A stretch of DNA of 64,000 bases from contig QKAF01000093.1 in the NCBI GenBank assembly GCA_003246455.1, positions 1-64,000 on the forward strand. Direction: 5' to 3'. A program made the translations under genes and the position numbers. The DNA is from Bacteroidota bacterium. Its GTDB lineage: Bacteria > Bacteroidota > Ignavibacteria > SZUA-365. This document shows, one piece after another, positions 50,811 to 57,510 of the stretch. The first letter of the stretch is position 1. Every line of letters begins with the position of its first letter. The notes under the pieces are model-generated. The model saw only the letters and a list, made by a program, of their open reading frames with translations. It was not told the origin of the DNA and did not search any database.

Positions 50811-50836
50811 AAACGCCCCGCATCCGCGGGGCGTTT
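50811..50836. terminator. Bidirectional terminator between glyA and the glycosyltransferase
   Basis: 11-base arms AAACGCCCCGC/GCGGGGCGTTT with a 4-base loop. It ends glyA on the plus strand and lies at the 3' end of the glycosyltransferase gene on the minus strand. Confidence 0.85.
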
Positions 50837-52071
50837 CATGTATACACCCGGCCCGAAATCTCCTGCACTTCGCCGTCGAGCGATGCCAGCAGCGCGGCGT
50901 ACGCGCCGGCATGCGCCTGCCAGGAAAAATGCTCCCGGATACGTCCGCGCGCTTCGAGCGCCTGGCGCTGCATTTCGCGGAGCCGTTCGAACACCTCGAG
51001 GATCGCGGCGGCGATTTCCTCCGGCGCGCTGCTCATCAGCGGCCGTACCGCGGCCCCGAGAGCCAGGAGATCCGGCACGACACCCGCATGAGCGCCGGCA
51101 ATCAGCGGCAGACCCGCCGCCGCCGCTTCCAGCGTCACCAGCCCGAAGGATTCGTGCTGTGAAGGCTGGACGGCGACATGTATGTCGCGCAGCATCGCCT
51201 GCAGCGCGGGAGGGGATATCCAGCCGATGAATTCAATGGCGTCATCGACGCCGAGAGTTTTCGTGAGCCGGCGGAACTCCTTCAGAAGATAGCCGTCGCC
51301 CGCCACGGTCAGCCGAAGTTCCGGACCGCCTCCGTCGCGGACGAGCGGAACGGCGCGCAGCAGCGCTTCGACATGCTTGCTGTACTGATCGAGACGCGAG
51401 ACGCAGATGCAGTGCAGCGGCGGCGGCACGGGAGGATCGGCCGCGGGACGAGCATCCTCGACCGCGAGGGGAACCAGGCGGACCTCCTTTTCCGGAAGGA
51501 GATGTTCCAGCTCCACCGTCTGCATTCTGCACTGACTGATGACGGTGTCGGCGGTTCCGAGCTGCTCGAGCAGCCATGTGCGCAGTGCTGCCAGCCCGTC
51601 CATCCTCATCGACCCCAGCGTTTCATTCTCGTCTATCCACAGCGGCACTCCCAGTTCCCTGGCAGCGAAGCGCGCGAGCGGCGTCGCCGCATGCATGTAG
51701 TGCACGAGAACGGCATCGAAGCCGTGGATCCGCAGCTGCGTCCGAAGCCAGCGTCTCTGCTGCCAGAGGTAGAGTCGCGGATTGATCCGCCAGCCGAGGA
51801 CGTCAGGCAGCGTCAGGCAACGCCGATGAAGAACGGTGACGTGCGGGAAGGGCTGCTCCTGACGCCTGAGCCTGTAAAGGATACGGAACCAGCGCCGGTC
51901 ATAGCCGCCGAACAGCAGATTTTTCAGCCGCGGCAGCGTCCGGAGCAGGGAGACCACTGTCACATCGGCGACGCCGTCGAGCGACTGCAGGTGGGCGAGC
52001 ATCCAGGCCGCCGGACTCCTCTCGGCGTCAACGGGGTACCTGTCGGTAATTATCAGGAGACGTTTTCCCAT
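50836..52071 (-). CDS. GT4-type glycosyltransferase
   Basis: 411 residues of a GT-B retaining glycosyltransferase: KRLLIITDRYPVDAERSPAAWM; acceptor half FDAVLVHYMHAATPLARFAA; donor half CICVSRLDQYSKHVEALLRAV and LTVAGDGYLLKEFRRL; EFIGWISPPALQAML; and the EX7E motif in HESFGLVTLEAAAAGLPLIAG. It transfers a sugar from a nucleotide-sugar, probably for envelope polysaccharide. ATG 52071 overlaps the AroB-AroA stop (ATGA), so the two are translated together. That is unexpected for a shikimate enzyme. Confidence 0.92.
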   Translation of the reverse strand: MGKRLLIITDRYPVDAERSPAAWMLAHLQSLDGVADVTVVSLLRTLPRLKNLLFGGYDRRWFRILYRLRRQEQPFPHVTVLHRRCLTLPDVLGWRINPRLYLWQQRRWLRTQLRIHGFDAVLVHYMHAATPLARFAARELGVPLWIDENETLGSMRMDGLAALRTWLLEQLGTADTVISQCRMQTVELEHLLPEKEVRLVPLAVEDARPAADPPVPPPLHCICVSRLDQYSKHVEALLRAVPLVRDGGGPELRLTVAGDGYLLKEFRRLTKTLGVDDAIEFIGWISPPALQAMLRDIHVAVQPSQHESFGLVTLEAAAAGLPLIAGAHAGVVPDLLALGAAVRPLMSSAPEEIAAAILEVFERLREMQRQALEARGRIREHFSWQAHAGAYAALLASLDGEVQEISGRVYT

Positions 52072-54371
52072 CAGCGGTCCTGCGGCTGCGGGCGAAGCGA
52101 CCAGCCGGCGCGTCGTGCGTCGTCCCAAAACCGCGGATACGACTTGGTTACCGTCCATGGATGATCGAGGACAACGGGACCCTGGGTCACCAGGGTCAGC
52201 AGGGTTCCCGCCATGACGAGGCGATGATCGCCCCAGGTCGAAAACAGGACGTCCTGCAGAATCATCTCCGTTCCCGGTTCGAGCGTCAGTCCGTCGCTTC
52301 GTGCTTCGACCTTCACGCCCACCGACCGCAGCGACTCGACGAACGCATCGATGCGGTTCGACTCCTTGTTGCGCAGATGCGCGGCACCGGTGAATGTCAC
52401 GGGATAGGTTTCGGAGAGGGCTGCGATCGTCAGCACCGGGAGGAGGTCCGGAACAAGAGAAAGGTCGATGGTCTGCGGCGCGCGCCGGGCTTCGCGTACC
52501 GCGGCAAGATACTGTTCGACGGTGCCGTCGGGCTGCCGCGGGATGCGCGCCTTCTGCCCGGCTTCCACCGGGTGTCCGAGATAGTGCGCGACGCGCCACA
52601 CGGCACTGGAGCTTTCATCGGTGCCGACGTCGATGGTGCGTTTCTCGTTGAGCCGCTCGGTCTGGTTCAGCGCGATCAGATCCCCGTGCGCGATCGTCTC
52701 CACTCCCGCTTCCTCGAGCATGGCGATGGTCATATCGAGGTACGAGCGGCTGACCGGTTCGGCGAGGAGACGGATGGTGATGGGCGATTCCGCTCCGACC
52801 GAAAGCAGTGCGAGCGCGGAAGCGAACTGCGAGGAGGCGGAAGGATCCACCGAAAAAACCTGCGGCATCTCCCGCCAGCCGCGCACGACATAGCCCTGTC
52901 CCGAGAGGTCGCTGAACGGTTCGATCGTCGCACCGCCGCTGCGAAGCGCACGGAGCAGCGGCTCATGCGGCCGCTGCATCAGTGCGGGCGAAAGCAGGAA
53001 TTTCGTGGGTTTCACATTGGTGCAGCAGAGCGCGAGCAGAAACCGGAACGTCGTTCCACCTTCGCAGACGAACACGGTCCGATCGCTCTCGTCGGTTTCG
53101 ACGCGGAGTTCCCTGTTGAGATTGTCGACCACATAACCCCGGTCCGTTTCGGCGATCGGATACCCCAGGCCACGCAGCGCGCGGAGCATGCATCGCACGT
53201 CATCGGCATCGCTCCTGCCGTTGATGACCGTACGGCCCATCCGCTGTGCCGCGATGATGAGCGCGCGGTTCAGCTCGGATTTGCTCGCCTCGATGGTGAG
53301 CGGCACGACCCGCGGCGTCGCGAGACGAACGCGTACCGGGGTGTTCGCGAATGCATCCATGCTGCGCCGCAGCGCGTCGATCCACTCCGCCGCGGAGACA
53401 TCCGCAAGGACCACCGGATCGCCGATATCGCGCAGCAGCACCGAGCGAAGTTTTTCGTCGCTGCGTTTCTTGTCCCGGAGGATGGCCCCTTCGAGCACAC
53501 CGTCGCGAGGGAGCGCGGGGAGAGGAAGCAGCAGCGGAAAGAGCGTCTCGCGGCAGTGCGCTGCCGCATCGGCAGGCAGTCCATGCGACTGCGAGAGTTC
53601 GAGTCCGGCCGCCATGCCCCAGGCGACCGCGGCCCCGTGGCTGACGCCTGTGGTCAGTTCCAGGGCGTGCGCCAGCGTGTGGCCGAGATTGAGCACCGTG
53701 CGTATCCCCTGTTCCTCCCGCGGATCCTGCGCCACGATACGCTGCTTTATTCCCACCGCATGTTCGATGATTCGTCCGAGACGATCCTGCACCTGCGCGA
53801 ACGGCGCGAACGTCAGCGTTTCCATCTCCTCGCCCGTCAGCGCCACGACGCTCGCCCTGTCCCCGAGCCACAGCGCCTTGAGCAGTTCGACCATGCCGTC
53901 GCGCCGGAGCGGAATCGGAAGGGTCGCCAGGAATTCCTCCACCAGCAGCACGCGTTCGGCGGGATAGAAGGTGCCGAGCTGGTTCTTGGCGCTGCCGAGA
54001 TTCACCGCCGTCTTCCCGCCATGCGCGGAATCGACCATCGCGACCATCGTCGTCGGGATGTGCCACAAACCGACACCCCGCCAGAGTATGCTCGCGAGGA
54101 ACCCGACCGCATCGCCGATGCTCCCGCCACCCACGGCGACAAGCGTCAGCGGCTTGCTCGAACGGCGATGGAGCACATGGCCCGCGAGATCCTCGACACC
54201 GGCGAGAGTCTTGAGTTTTTCTCCCGCGTCGACCAGCACCGGGTGGTCGAATCGCGCAAGCACCTCCCGCGGAAGGCGGCGGTCGGCGACGACAACGGCA
54301 TGCGCCGGCAGGGAAAGCTCGTTCAGTGTGGCGATGCGCTCAAGCAAGCTGCTGCTGTCCTGTTCCTGCAT
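52071..54371 (-). CDS. aroBA: Fused 3-dehydroquinate synthase / EPSP synthase (AroB-AroA)
   Basis: 766 residues in one frame. Residues 1 to about 345 are AroB: TLVAVGGGSIGDAVGFLAS, LWHIPTTMVAMVDSAHGGKTAVNLGSAKNQLGTFYP, GMVELLKALW (metal Glu, Lys), LNLGHTLAHALE and VSHGAAVAWGM (metal His). From about 350 is AroA: IEASKSELNRALIIA, EGGTTFRFLLAL, RPHEPLLRAL, VDPSASSQFASALAL, DESSSAVWRVAH, VPDLLPVLTI (catalytic Asp), HLRNKESNRI, TWGDHRLVMAG and KSYPRFWDD. Both halves keep their key residues though the sequences are divergent. They catalyse steps 2 and 6 of the shikimate pathway. ATG 54371 has AGGA upstream and a TATATT at 54406; an in-frame ATG at 54437 is less likely. Confidence 0.92.
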   Translation of the reverse strand: MQEQDSSSLLERIATLNELSLPAHAVVVADRRLPREVLARFDHPVLVDAGEKLKTLAGVEDLAGHVLHRRSSKPLTLVAVGGGSIGDAVGFLASILWRGVGLWHIPTTMVAMVDSAHGGKTAVNLGSAKNQLGTFYPAERVLLVEEFLATLPIPLRRDGMVELLKALWLGDRASVVALTGEEMETLTFAPFAQVQDRLGRIIEHAVGIKQRIVAQDPREEQGIRTVLNLGHTLAHALELTTGVSHGAAVAWGMAAGLELSQSHGLPADAAAHCRETLFPLLLPLPALPRDGVLEGAILRDKKRSDEKLRSVLLRDIGDPVVLADVSAAEWIDALRRSMDAFANTPVRVRLATPRVVPLTIEASKSELNRALIIAAQRMGRTVINGRSDADDVRCMLRALRGLGYPIAETDRGYVVDNLNRELRVETDESDRTVFVCEGGTTFRFLLALCCTNVKPTKFLLSPALMQRPHEPLLRALRSGGATIEPFSDLSGQGYVVRGWREMPQVFSVDPSASSQFASALALLSVGAESPITIRLLAEPVSRSYLDMTIAMLEEAGVETIAHGDLIALNQTERLNEKRTIDVGTDESSSAVWRVAHYLGHPVEAGQKARIPRQPDGTVEQYLAAVREARRAPQTIDLSLVPDLLPVLTIAALSETYPVTFTGAAHLRNKESNRIDAFVESLRSVGVKVEARSDGLTLEPGTEMILQDVLFSTWGDHRLVMAGTLLTLVTQGPVVLDHPWTVTKSYPRFWDDARRAGWSLRPQPQDR

Positions 54372-54405
54372 GATGACGATCCTGTGATTTCGGGAGGCTC
54401 GGTGG

Positions 54406-54411
54406 AATATA
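54406..54411 (-). promoter_or_regulatory. -10-like TATATT of aroBA
   Basis: Minus strand CTTTTCGTATATTCC, about 35 bases upstream of ATG 54371. It supports the shorter start, because the longer one would begin before this element. Confidence 0.35.
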
Positions 54412-54453
54412 CGAAAAGGTTTCGTGACGCCGCTCATGCGGCCATGAATGACA

Positions 54454-54479
54454 CAGGGCGGATTTGTGAATCCGCCCTG
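54454..54479. terminator. Perfect stem-loop between M16 gene and aroBA
   Basis: 11-base arms CAGGGCGGATT/AATCCGCCCTG with a TGTG loop, 30 bases past the M16 stop. There is no T-run, so it may be a weak terminator or an RNA 3'-end stabiliser. Confidence 0.5.
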
Positions 54480-54508
54480 CGATGTGACTGCGACCGATGA
54501 AGCCGGGA

Positions 54509-56014
54509 TTACCGGAACATCTCTTCCACCGGCACGATGCGGATTTTCGCATCCGTGAACGGCAGCGGGTAAACCTCGATGGCCTTGTCTTCCTCGAGCA
54601 CCTCGTCGGGCTTGGGCGTCTCGTAGGTGACCGGGCTGGGACTGTTCGCAACCAGCTCCGCCTTGAAGGCTTCAGCATCCGCGGTGACGACGCCGAACTT
54701 GATGTTCTTCACCTGGAGGTGCTTGCGAATCGCGGCGTTGACCTTTTCCAGCGTGAGTTCGCCGATCTTGCGGCGGAACAGTTCGATATAGTCTCCGTGA
54801 ATTCCGTAGAACTTGCTGTCGACCGCGTAGCCCAGGCGCTCCGACGTCGTCGTGGCATACTGCAGGGCATACTTGTCGAGGAATTTCTGCGTGAGCTCAA
54901 ACTGCTCCCTGGTCATGCCGCTGTCTATCACGTGCTGCAGTTCCCGGATCGCGGCACGGAGCGCGAAATGGCGATGCACGTGCTGAACCGGACGAATCCA
55001 CACTTCGAAGAGCTGCTGACGGCGCGCGTTGTTCGTCTCCGGCATCTGCCGCCGTCCGCCGTTCGGGAAGATCTCGATGTAGGAGTAATCCCCGTAGTTC
55101 ATCCCGCGGGCTTCGCGAATCACCTGGTAGAGATGCGACGCGGAATTCCGGTGTTCGCCGAACCAGGAGTTGAACAGCGCGAGCGCGTAGAAATCCTCAT
55201 CGCCCCGGAGGACGGAAATAGGGAAGCCGAAGCTGATCGCGGTGGCGTCGCACTCTTTTTCCACCATCAGCATTTCGAAACCGTCGATGGGCGCGACCGC
55301 CGGCGGATCGGGCTGCTGGGGCATTCCCTCGGGAAGCGCCTTCAGGTCTTTCTCCAGACGTGCTACGAGCGTCTGGTCGTAGCCGCCGCCGAGTCCGATC
55401 ACGAAGTTGTCGCGCGTGTACCACTTCGCGTAAAACGCGCGCACATCGTCGATCGTGATCGCGTCGAGGCTGCTGAGCGTTCCCTCGTTGAGATGCCCGT
55501 AATGGGTGCCGGCGTACACGAAGTCATGGAACACCGCCTTGCCGAGTTCCTCGTCGTTGGCGTACCGGAGGGATTTCTCGATCCCGTTGCGCAGGTCGGT
55601 CTTGATGCGCTGGAAATCCTCGTCCCTGAAACCGGGATGAAGGATCGCGTCGGTCAGGAGTTCGTAGTATTCGTCGATGTTGTCCCGGTGCACCCGTCCG
55701 CGGATGACGGTCATTTCCTTGTCCACGTTCGCCCCGTAGCCGGCGGCCATCGGATAGAGCGCTTCCATGATGTCTTCATATCCGCGCTTCTCGCTGCCGC
55801 CTTCGGTCATGAGCATGGCCGTGAGGTTGGCGAGCCCTTCTTTTCCCGCGGGGTCACACTGCGCGCCGACCTTGAACCAGATATTGAAAGAAATGGTGGG
55901 ATCGTCTTTCACCGGAAGCAGAACCACGTTTTCGGAAGAAGGTACACTGCATGCGCTCATGAGCAGAACAACCGCAAAAATGATGAATGAGGAATGGGTG
56001 ATGCGCGTTTTCAT
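54509..56014 (-). CDS. M16 peptidase-like lipoprotein, catalytically silent partner
   Basis: 501 residues with a lipobox signal (FAVVLLMSAC). It has the M16 fold (PTISFNIWFKVGAQCDPAGKEGLANLTAMLMTEGG, RDNFVIGLGGGYD, SFGFPISVLRGDEDFYALALFNSW, YGDYSYIE), but where active members have HXXEH it reads GLANLTAML, so the zinc site is missing. In two-component M16B proteases one chain supplies zinc and the other substrate binding. This looks like the binding partner of the next gene, which begins upstream and ends two bases before this start. Confidence 0.88.
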   Translation of the reverse strand: MKTRITHSSFIIFAVVLLMSACSVPSSENVVLLPVKDDPTISFNIWFKVGAQCDPAGKEGLANLTAMLMTEGGSEKRGYEDIMEALYPMAAGYGANVDKEMTVIRGRVHRDNIDEYYELLTDAILHPGFRDEDFQRIKTDLRNGIEKSLRYANDEELGKAVFHDFVYAGTHYGHLNEGTLSSLDAITIDDVRAFYAKWYTRDNFVIGLGGGYDQTLVARLEKDLKALPEGMPQQPDPPAVAPIDGFEMLMVEKECDATAISFGFPISVLRGDEDFYALALFNSWFGEHRNSASHLYQVIREARGMNYGDYSYIEIFPNGGRRQMPETNNARRQQLFEVWIRPVQHVHRHFALRAAIRELQHVIDSGMTREQFELTQKFLDKYALQYATTTSERLGYAVDSKFYGIHGDYIELFRRKIGELTLEKVNAAIRKHLQVKNIKFGVVTADAEAFKAELVANSPSPVTYETPKPDEVLEEDKAIEVYPLPFTDAKIRIVPVEEMFR

Positions 56015-56016
56015 GG

Positions 56017-57354
56017 TCAGTCCCTCCCCTGCAGCGTGGCAATGGTGCGATGCGCCGGCGTGAGATACGTCGCCACCGCTTTCTGGATGTCCTCCGCGGT
56101 CACGGCGTCGTACGCCGCGTACAGGACGTTCACCACCTCGATACCGCCGGTGATGGCCACGAGGCGCGCGAGACGGCCGGCGACCTTGTCCGGAGTGTCA
56201 AGATTCATGAGAAAAGAGTATTTAAGTCTTTTCTTTACATTCTCGAGCTTCCGCGCGGGAACGGGCGCGTCGCGAAACGTCGCGACGGTACGGTCGATCT
56301 CGGCGAGCACGTACGGGAGGTCTTTCGCGTCCTTCACCATCGCGTAGATCGACCAGAGGCCCGGGTCCCGGTTCAGATCGAAGTCCGCGCTGATGAACTG
56401 CACCTTCTGCTCCTGCAGCACGAGTTTCTTGTAGATCTCGCTGGTCTCGCCGAACAGCAGGTCGTCGAGCATCGAACCGGCGACCATCAGGCGGTTCGTC
56501 GGGTCGAGCGCGGCGGCCTTGTACGAGACGATCATCAGCGGCAGCGTCTTTCCCTCATAGCGGACCGCCACCTTCCGTTCTGCCGTCTGCGCGGGTTCCG
56601 CGGGAATCGCGGGGGCAACGTAGCCTTTCTTCCAGCCGCCGTAGTAGTTCCGGATCATCTCGAGCGCTTTTTTCGCGTCGAAATCCCCCGCCAGCAGCAG
56701 GACGACGTTCTCCGGACGATAGTAGCGCTGGAAAAACTCCTTGCTGTAGGCGTACATCGTCGGCATGGCCTTGATGTCGGCTTCGTAGCCCATCGTGGTA
56801 TGTCCGTAGGTGTGCCTGGTGAACGCCGTCTCCTGCAGCGCTTCGATCAGCACCTCCCAGGGACTTGTCCGGTTCTTCCGGTACTCTCCGTACACGGCGC
56901 CCGCCTCGGTCTGGAACGGCGCCTCCGCGTAGTCGAGATACTGGAAGCGATCGCTTTCAAGCTTGATCACCGTTTCGAGATCCTGCGACGCGAAGGAAAG
57001 ATGATAGGCCGTGAGATCGTCGGTCGTGTACGCGTTGGCGTCCGCGCCCATGGCCGTCACCATCCGGTCGTACACCGAGGACGGATAATTCTTCGTACCG
57101 CGGAACATCATATGTTCGAAAAAATGCGCGAAACCGGTTTTCCCCGTCTCGAATTCGTCACGGGATCCGGTGCGCACGATGCTGTAGTAGGACATGAGTC
57201 CGCCGCTGGACATCGGGATCATCACGACCTTCAGTCCGTTTTCAAGCGTGTGCGTTTCCCATGCGTAGGGGAACACACCATTACCGCCCGGTGCCGCGTT
57301 CATGACACCTCCCGTCAATGCGTAGGCAAGCATGACATACACTAGTAGTTTCAC
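56017..57354 (-). CDS. M16 zinc metallopeptidase, active subunit
   Basis: 445 residues from GTG 57354 (AAGGAG site 5 bases upstream; signal VYVMLAYALTGGVMNA). It contains the inverted zinc motif HFFEH (His77, Glu80, His81), the downstream zinc Glu region (ETVIKLESDRF, AGAVYGEYRKNR) and the partner-half motif VVLLLAGDFDAKKALEMI. Likely a periplasmic peptidase of the M16B type, forming a heterodimer with the adjacent zinc-less chain. Longer starts up to 57474 are open but lack a signal peptide. Confidence 0.92.
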   Translation of the reverse strand: MKLLVYVMLAYALTGGVMNAAPGGNGVFPYAWETHTLENGLKVVMIPMSSGGLMSYYSIVRTGSRDEFETGKTGFAHFFEHMMFRGTKNYPSSVYDRMVTAMGADANAYTTDDLTAYHLSFASQDLETVIKLESDRFQYLDYAEAPFQTEAGAVYGEYRKNRTSPWEVLIEALQETAFTRHTYGHTTMGYEADIKAMPTMYAYSKEFFQRYYRPENVVLLLAGDFDAKKALEMIRNYYGGWKKGYVAPAIPAEPAQTAERKVAVRYEGKTLPLMIVSYKAAALDPTNRLMVAGSMLDDLLFGETSEIYKKLVLQEQKVQFISADFDLNRDPGLWSIYAMVKDAKDLPYVLAEIDRTVATFRDAPVPARKLENVKKRLKYSFLMNLDTPDKVAGRLARLVAITGGIEVVNVLYAAYDAVTAEDIQKAVATYLTPAHRTIATLQGRD

Positions 57355-57409
57355 AAAGACTCCTTCTTTCATTCGGAAACGACAGAAGCGCTCGATGGAG
57401 CGTTCTCGT

Positions 57410-57438
57410 AATCTATTGAAAGCGCATCGATCCGACAA
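57410..57438 (-). promoter_or_regulatory. Promoter of the M16 operon
   Basis: Minus strand: TTGTCG (57438-57433), 17-base spacer, TAGATT (57415-57410); start expected near 57403. The -35 element lies inside the first copy of the 29-bp repeat. Confidence 0.5.
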
Positions 57439-57510
57439 AGGGTAATATCTGTCCGGATATCCCCCGGCGACCATGATCCCATCCGATAATCGGTAACATC
57501 TGTCCGGATA
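57431..57510. repeat. Two imperfect 29-bp direct repeats, 51 bases apart
   Basis: 57431-57459 and 57482-57510 share 25 of 29 bases, ending in the identical ATCTGTCCGGATA. They lie in the divergent region between the M16 operon and the HTH-CHAD gene. They could be regulator-binding sites or a dispersed genomic repeat. Confidence 0.8.

Follow-up and report, generated by a model that had tools for sequence, protein, structure and literature searches.

Two shikimate-pathway gene fusions in one order of Bacteroidota, a probable two-piece analogue of AROM of independent origin

The AROM protein is the textbook case of a pathway fused into a single polypeptide. It is known from fungi and apicomplexans, and separate enzymes are typical of bacteria (PMC9074039). 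The window analyzed here, a stretch of 64,000 nucleotides from contig QKAF01000093.1 of an Ignavibacteria draft genome (GCA_003246455.1), contains a gene, aroBA, in which 3-dehydroquinate synthase (AroB) and EPSP synthase (AroA) are joined in one frame, raising the question of whether this fusion is real, whether both of its halves are enzymes, and how it relates to AROM. We conclude that aroBA very probably encodes a bifunctional enzyme acting beside a second fusion, AroKDE, and a separate AroC, and that the two fusions together represent a bacterial counterpart of AROM in two pieces, most likely of independent origin.

An earlier note, made on inspection of the DNA, had proposed that one frame of 766 residues holds a complete AroB followed by a complete AroA, and this is borne out by the uninterrupted frame of 766 codons (coding part 54371-52074, stop codon 52073-52071, minus strand) and by its Pfam domains (Table 1). 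The open frame reaches further upstream to an ATG at 54437; the start at the ATG at 54371 is backed by the relatives of the protein. Residues 46-302 match DHQ_synthase and DHQS_C (PF01761 and PF24621; E-values 4e-30 and 4e-24) with 104 and 86 bits, above the cut-offs of 24.2 and 27.6, and residues 358-750 match EPSP_synthase (PF00275; E-value 1e-48) with 166 bits, above the cut-off of 22.8. Against the equivalog model TIGR01357 the AroB half scores 234.9 bits, which is the top score among the alternatives and below the curated cut-off of 305; judged by its sequence, it is a diverged member of the 3-dehydroquinate synthases. The AroA half similarly scores 218.3 bits against TIGR01356, below the curated cut-off of 287.25.

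Table 1. Location of aroBA, its neighbors in the window, and the associated genes elsewhere in the same genome.
Feature	Position	Strand	Remarks
aroBA, bifunctional 3-dehydroquinate synthase / EPSP synthase	52071..54371	minus	766 aa plus stop
AroB half	53337..54371	minus	about residues 1-345; PF01761, PF24621, TIGR01357; conservation
AroA half	52074..53336	minus	about residues 346-766; PF00275, TIGR01356; conservation
Glycosyltransferase-like gene	50836..52071	minus	411 aa; downstream of aroBA; named from sequence appearance
M16-peptidase-like gene	54509-56014	minus	upstream of aroBA; named from sequence appearance
M16-peptidase-like gene	56017-57474	minus	upstream of aroBA; named from sequence appearance
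aroKDE, AroK-AroD-AroE fusion	G000:C111:31045-32868 (L054:91-1917)	minus	608 aa; found via the sole shikimate kinase match
aroC	L055:6000-7022	minus	next gene directly after aroKDE

The AroB catalytic set (E162, K165, K209, R224, N228, H231, H235, and H245), which includes the metal Glu/His/His (E162, H231, and H245) and the substrate residues K165, K209, R224, and N228, is conserved in an alignment of 13 members, with R224, N228, H231, H235, and H245 invariant and E162 and K165 nearly invariant rather than invariant because one row of the alignment is truncated. The AroA half has invariant K364, S365, R369, R467, S513-S514-Q515, D642, E670, R673, D715-H716-R717, and K743 in the same alignment. 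All of the motifs that the earlier note had named are present. The halves are joined almost without a linker, the last helix of AroB passing straight into the first strand of AroA in the alignment, where helix and strand are judged by the pattern of the residues and by a structure model of modest confidence (the AlphaFold model of AroBA used 10 sequences only and its AroB half is of low confidence).

The genome containing aroBA (G000) is a draft of 165 contigs, estimated as 98% complete, and a fused gene in such a draft could in principle be an artefact of assembly or sequencing. We regard this as vanishingly improbable and have discarded it, because the search for relatives that the earlier note had suggested returned the same fusion in 12 other genomes of the order, so that it is independently present and unbroken in 13 of the 16 genomes. 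These span six genera of two families, and one of them, G307, is a one-contig assembly. The identity of the relatives to the protein ranges from 83% down to about 50%. No stop or frameshift between the halves, which the earlier note had named as a counter-explanation, occurs in any of the 13 genomes carrying the fusion, in one of which (G310) a contig end removes the first 209 residues. Each has a single AroBA match, which is its sole aroA/aroB match. The fusion was also found, at 83% identity, in a Bacteroidetes MAG (L034), suggesting that this entry is perhaps G309 itself.

The other counter-explanation, intact stand-alone aroA and aroB genes making the fused copy redundant, likewise found no support in G000. 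A search of the genome for 3-dehydroquinate synthase gave one match and no second aroB, and the EPSP-synthase-family search gave two, the AroA half and murA. With the only other EPSP-like gene being MurA, no source of steps 2 and 6 other than aroBA was detected.

The only shikimate kinase match of G000 lies on another contig, at the N-terminus of a protein whose C-terminus is a shikimate dehydrogenase. This second fusion, AroKDE, forms an unbroken frame in each of the 13 genomes that carry AroBA (in G297 a contig end removes its kinase part) and is missing from the same three, G298-G300, which belong to family f53 of the order and matched neither fusion. Among 391 sampled genomes of the class, full-length AroKDE matches were restricted to these 13, and in the 13-member alignment the catalytic residues of its kinase, its dehydrogenase, and its putative dehydroquinase are retained.

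The approximately 200 residues between the AroK and AroE parts have no Pfam match, and a PDB search with a profile of this domain gave chance-level matches only. This segment occupies the place of AroD in AROM, and no type II dehydroquinase or other recognizable type I dehydroquinase was found elsewhere in G000. In a profile-profile comparison, the 13-member profile of the middle domain scored 34.3 against the type I dehydroquinase profile (P about 2e-4), whereas none of 200 column-shuffled controls exceeded 29.3 and the reversed profile reached 11.7. A longer alignment placed a Glu (VEIRSD), His (SSHP), Lys (LKYAP), and Arg (WMR) in or very near register with type I dehydroquinase; these four landmarks are invariant among the AroKDE members, and a glutamine loop near the end of the domain is apparently changed. 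The middle domain is probably a very diverged type I dehydroquinase (AroD), the case being good and not conclusive.

From these assignments, AroBA would catalyze shikimate steps 2 and 6 as the only detected copy of both in the cell, AroKDE would supply steps 5, 3, and 4, and the separate AroC step 7, such that the route from step 2 to chorismate would run on three polypeptides. Of the six domains concerned, four (B, A, K, and E) score below the NCBIfam equivalog cut-offs, D is without a match, and only AroC passes; these bacteria could therefore be miscalled as aromatic auxotrophs.

The same low scores leave room for a reading in which AroBA is a real protein of which one or both halves no longer catalyze their reaction, for example because the pathway has become dispensable or because one of them has taken on a related reaction (e.g., the AroB half having turned into a sugar phosphate cyclase). 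The long stem of the AroB half in its tree and the three genomes of the order without both fusions would agree with such a loss. However, both halves keep invariant active-site residues across about 50% sequence divergence, the remaining steps are covered by aroC and the co-occurring AroKDE fusion, and no substitute aroA or aroB genes were found in the genome, and we consequently consider a loss of activity improbable.

The bifunctional reading also has a genomic context. In three genomes (G308, G306, and G297) aroKDE, aroC, and aroBA are contiguous and cover steps 2-7. These three are early branches in the AroB and AroA trees of the fusion, with G297 being from a separate family, and the scattered layout of the source genome therefore looks derived. 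In the remaining genomes, aroKDE and aroC stand together, beside an aminotransferase gene, wherever a contig shows both, and aroBA is elsewhere, near glyA and two M16-like genes in the regions examined. The two M16-like genes that adjoin aroBA in the window do so also in G303, G305, and G307. Between the nearer of them and aroBA (54372-54508) there is a strong inverted repeat, GGGCGGATT CACA AATCCGCCC, with no T-run, possibly a terminator-like hairpin.

On the downstream side, translational coupling to the glycosyltransferase had been proposed through an ATGA overlap. The start of that gene does overlap the aroBA stop by one common base (at 52071), the junction reading TGATG and not ATGA, but the neighbor is strongly conserved solely in the closest relative examined and is not a general feature of the locus. 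We consequently dropped the coupling as a functional clue.

Jointly, and with the putative AroD counted, AroBA and AroKDE contain all five AROM domains in the internal order of AROM (B-A and K-D-E). The correspondence of the AroB-AroA order with the first two AROM domains, pointed out in the earlier note, is real and conserved in 13 genomes, in all of which the five domains are split over the two fusions, none having them in a single polypeptide. As in eukaryotic AROM (Aro1; PDB 6hqv, 7u5s, and 7tbv), the joins are nearly linker-free; unlike AROM, which is one chain, the system here consists of two polypeptides, and while the domain order agrees inside each fusion, the operon order is KDE-C-BA, placing KDE before BA with aroC between.

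Such a likeness might reflect ancestry shared by both fusions and eukaryotic AROM, whether pieces of AROM were acquired from a eukaryote or AROM had a bacterial forerunner, and a link of this type had been hinted at in the earlier note. Besides the identical internal order, it is consistent with this possibility that the best PDB chain for both family profiles is AROM, and that the AroBA profile runs through the B-A junction in one unbroken stretch. AROM tops these matches, however, because it adds up several domains. When the domains are compared one by one in the PDB searches with family profiles, bacterial single enzymes outscore AROM for every domain that is detectable: 190 versus 158 bits for AroB, 183 versus 132 for AroA, 63.5 versus 49.7 for AroK, and 63.2 versus 29.4 for AroE. 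The general aroE model also gives the AroE half 75 bits, versus 33 from the AROM-type model, and no AROM chain was among the matches of this half in a single-sequence PDB search.

Trees of the two AroBA halves, in which the AROM rows are aligned stretches of two PDB chains and sampling outside Bacteroidota is thin, bear on the same question. In the AroA tree the fusion groups with Bacteroidota AroA (support 90) and AROM groups with a gammaproteobacterial sequence, and a clade of fusion plus AROM is weakly to moderately rejected (p 0.049; p 0.013 without long and near-duplicate rows). The AroB tree lets such a clade stand (p 0.23) and leaves the fusion unplaced, and because of its very long stem it speaks neither for nor against. 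Given the grouping of the domains into these fusions, AROM's order inside them has a 1-in-12 chance of arising, and convergence therefore requires no special explanation, with selection on the order still possible. Common ancestry with eukaryotic AROM is thus not supported, the domain comparisons and the AroA tree speaking against the link that had been hinted at, and we believe it to be highly improbable.

The fusions, most likely formed independently, are a lineage-fixed two-piece bacterial AROM analogue that is new and lies largely under standard annotation cut-offs. An order of bacteria in which AROM's internal domain order has become fixed in two fusions offers a natural replicate for testing why enzymes fuse (channeling, dosage, or assembly) and whether selection acts on the order of the domains. 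It is conceivable, although we think it unlikely, that AroBA, AroKDE, and AroC assemble into an AROM-like complex and so constitute a naturally split AROM, which would be convergent or, less likely, derived from a prokaryotic forerunner.

Several fusions of shikimate-pathway enzymes are already known from prokaryotes. A dehydroquinase / shikimate dehydrogenase, AroDE, occurs in plants, Planctomycetes, Acidobacteria, and some archaea (PMC11237513) and, as seen here, in another family of the class, f4; like AroKDE, it has a type I dehydroquinase ahead of shikimate dehydrogenase in one chain, but AroKDE differs in having a shikimate kinase added in front and an AroD domain too diverged for Pfam. 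AroK/AroL-AroB fusions have been described in prokaryotes (PMC7311316) and an AroK-AroE fusion in Methanomicrobiales (PMC11237513), and the NCBIfam models list AroA-cytidylate kinase and TyrA-AroA fusions. These four types resemble the present case as prokaryotic fusions of shikimate steps, yet they involve other partners, and none combines AroB with AroA, joins AroK-AroD-AroE, or places five steps in two proteins. Our literature search, the coverage of which was incomplete and which does not prove absence, found no report of bacterial AroB-AroA or AroK-AroD-AroE fusions.

In several other families of Bacteroidota (L005, L006, L007, L020, L035, and L036), aroB and aroA are unfused neighbors that either adjoin or overlap. 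They have the gene order of AroBA and differ from it in that a stop divides them into two frames, which suggests a local origin of the fusion. The fusions would most likely have formed within Bacteroidota, without any link to eukaryotic AROM, by the joining of adjacent genes in an aro operon.

AroBA was unmatched in sampled genomes of f53 of the order and of families f5, f6, and f8 of the class, some of them 96-100% complete, and loss of the aromatic pathway in these several lineages is probable. Family f4 has the gene arrangement aroB-aroDE-aroA-aroC. Its AroC is 453 residues long and, in L148 (9719-11077), bears a C-terminal chorismate mutase domain at residues 359-447; the AroC encoded at L149:8558-9916 in the same family looks like that of L148.
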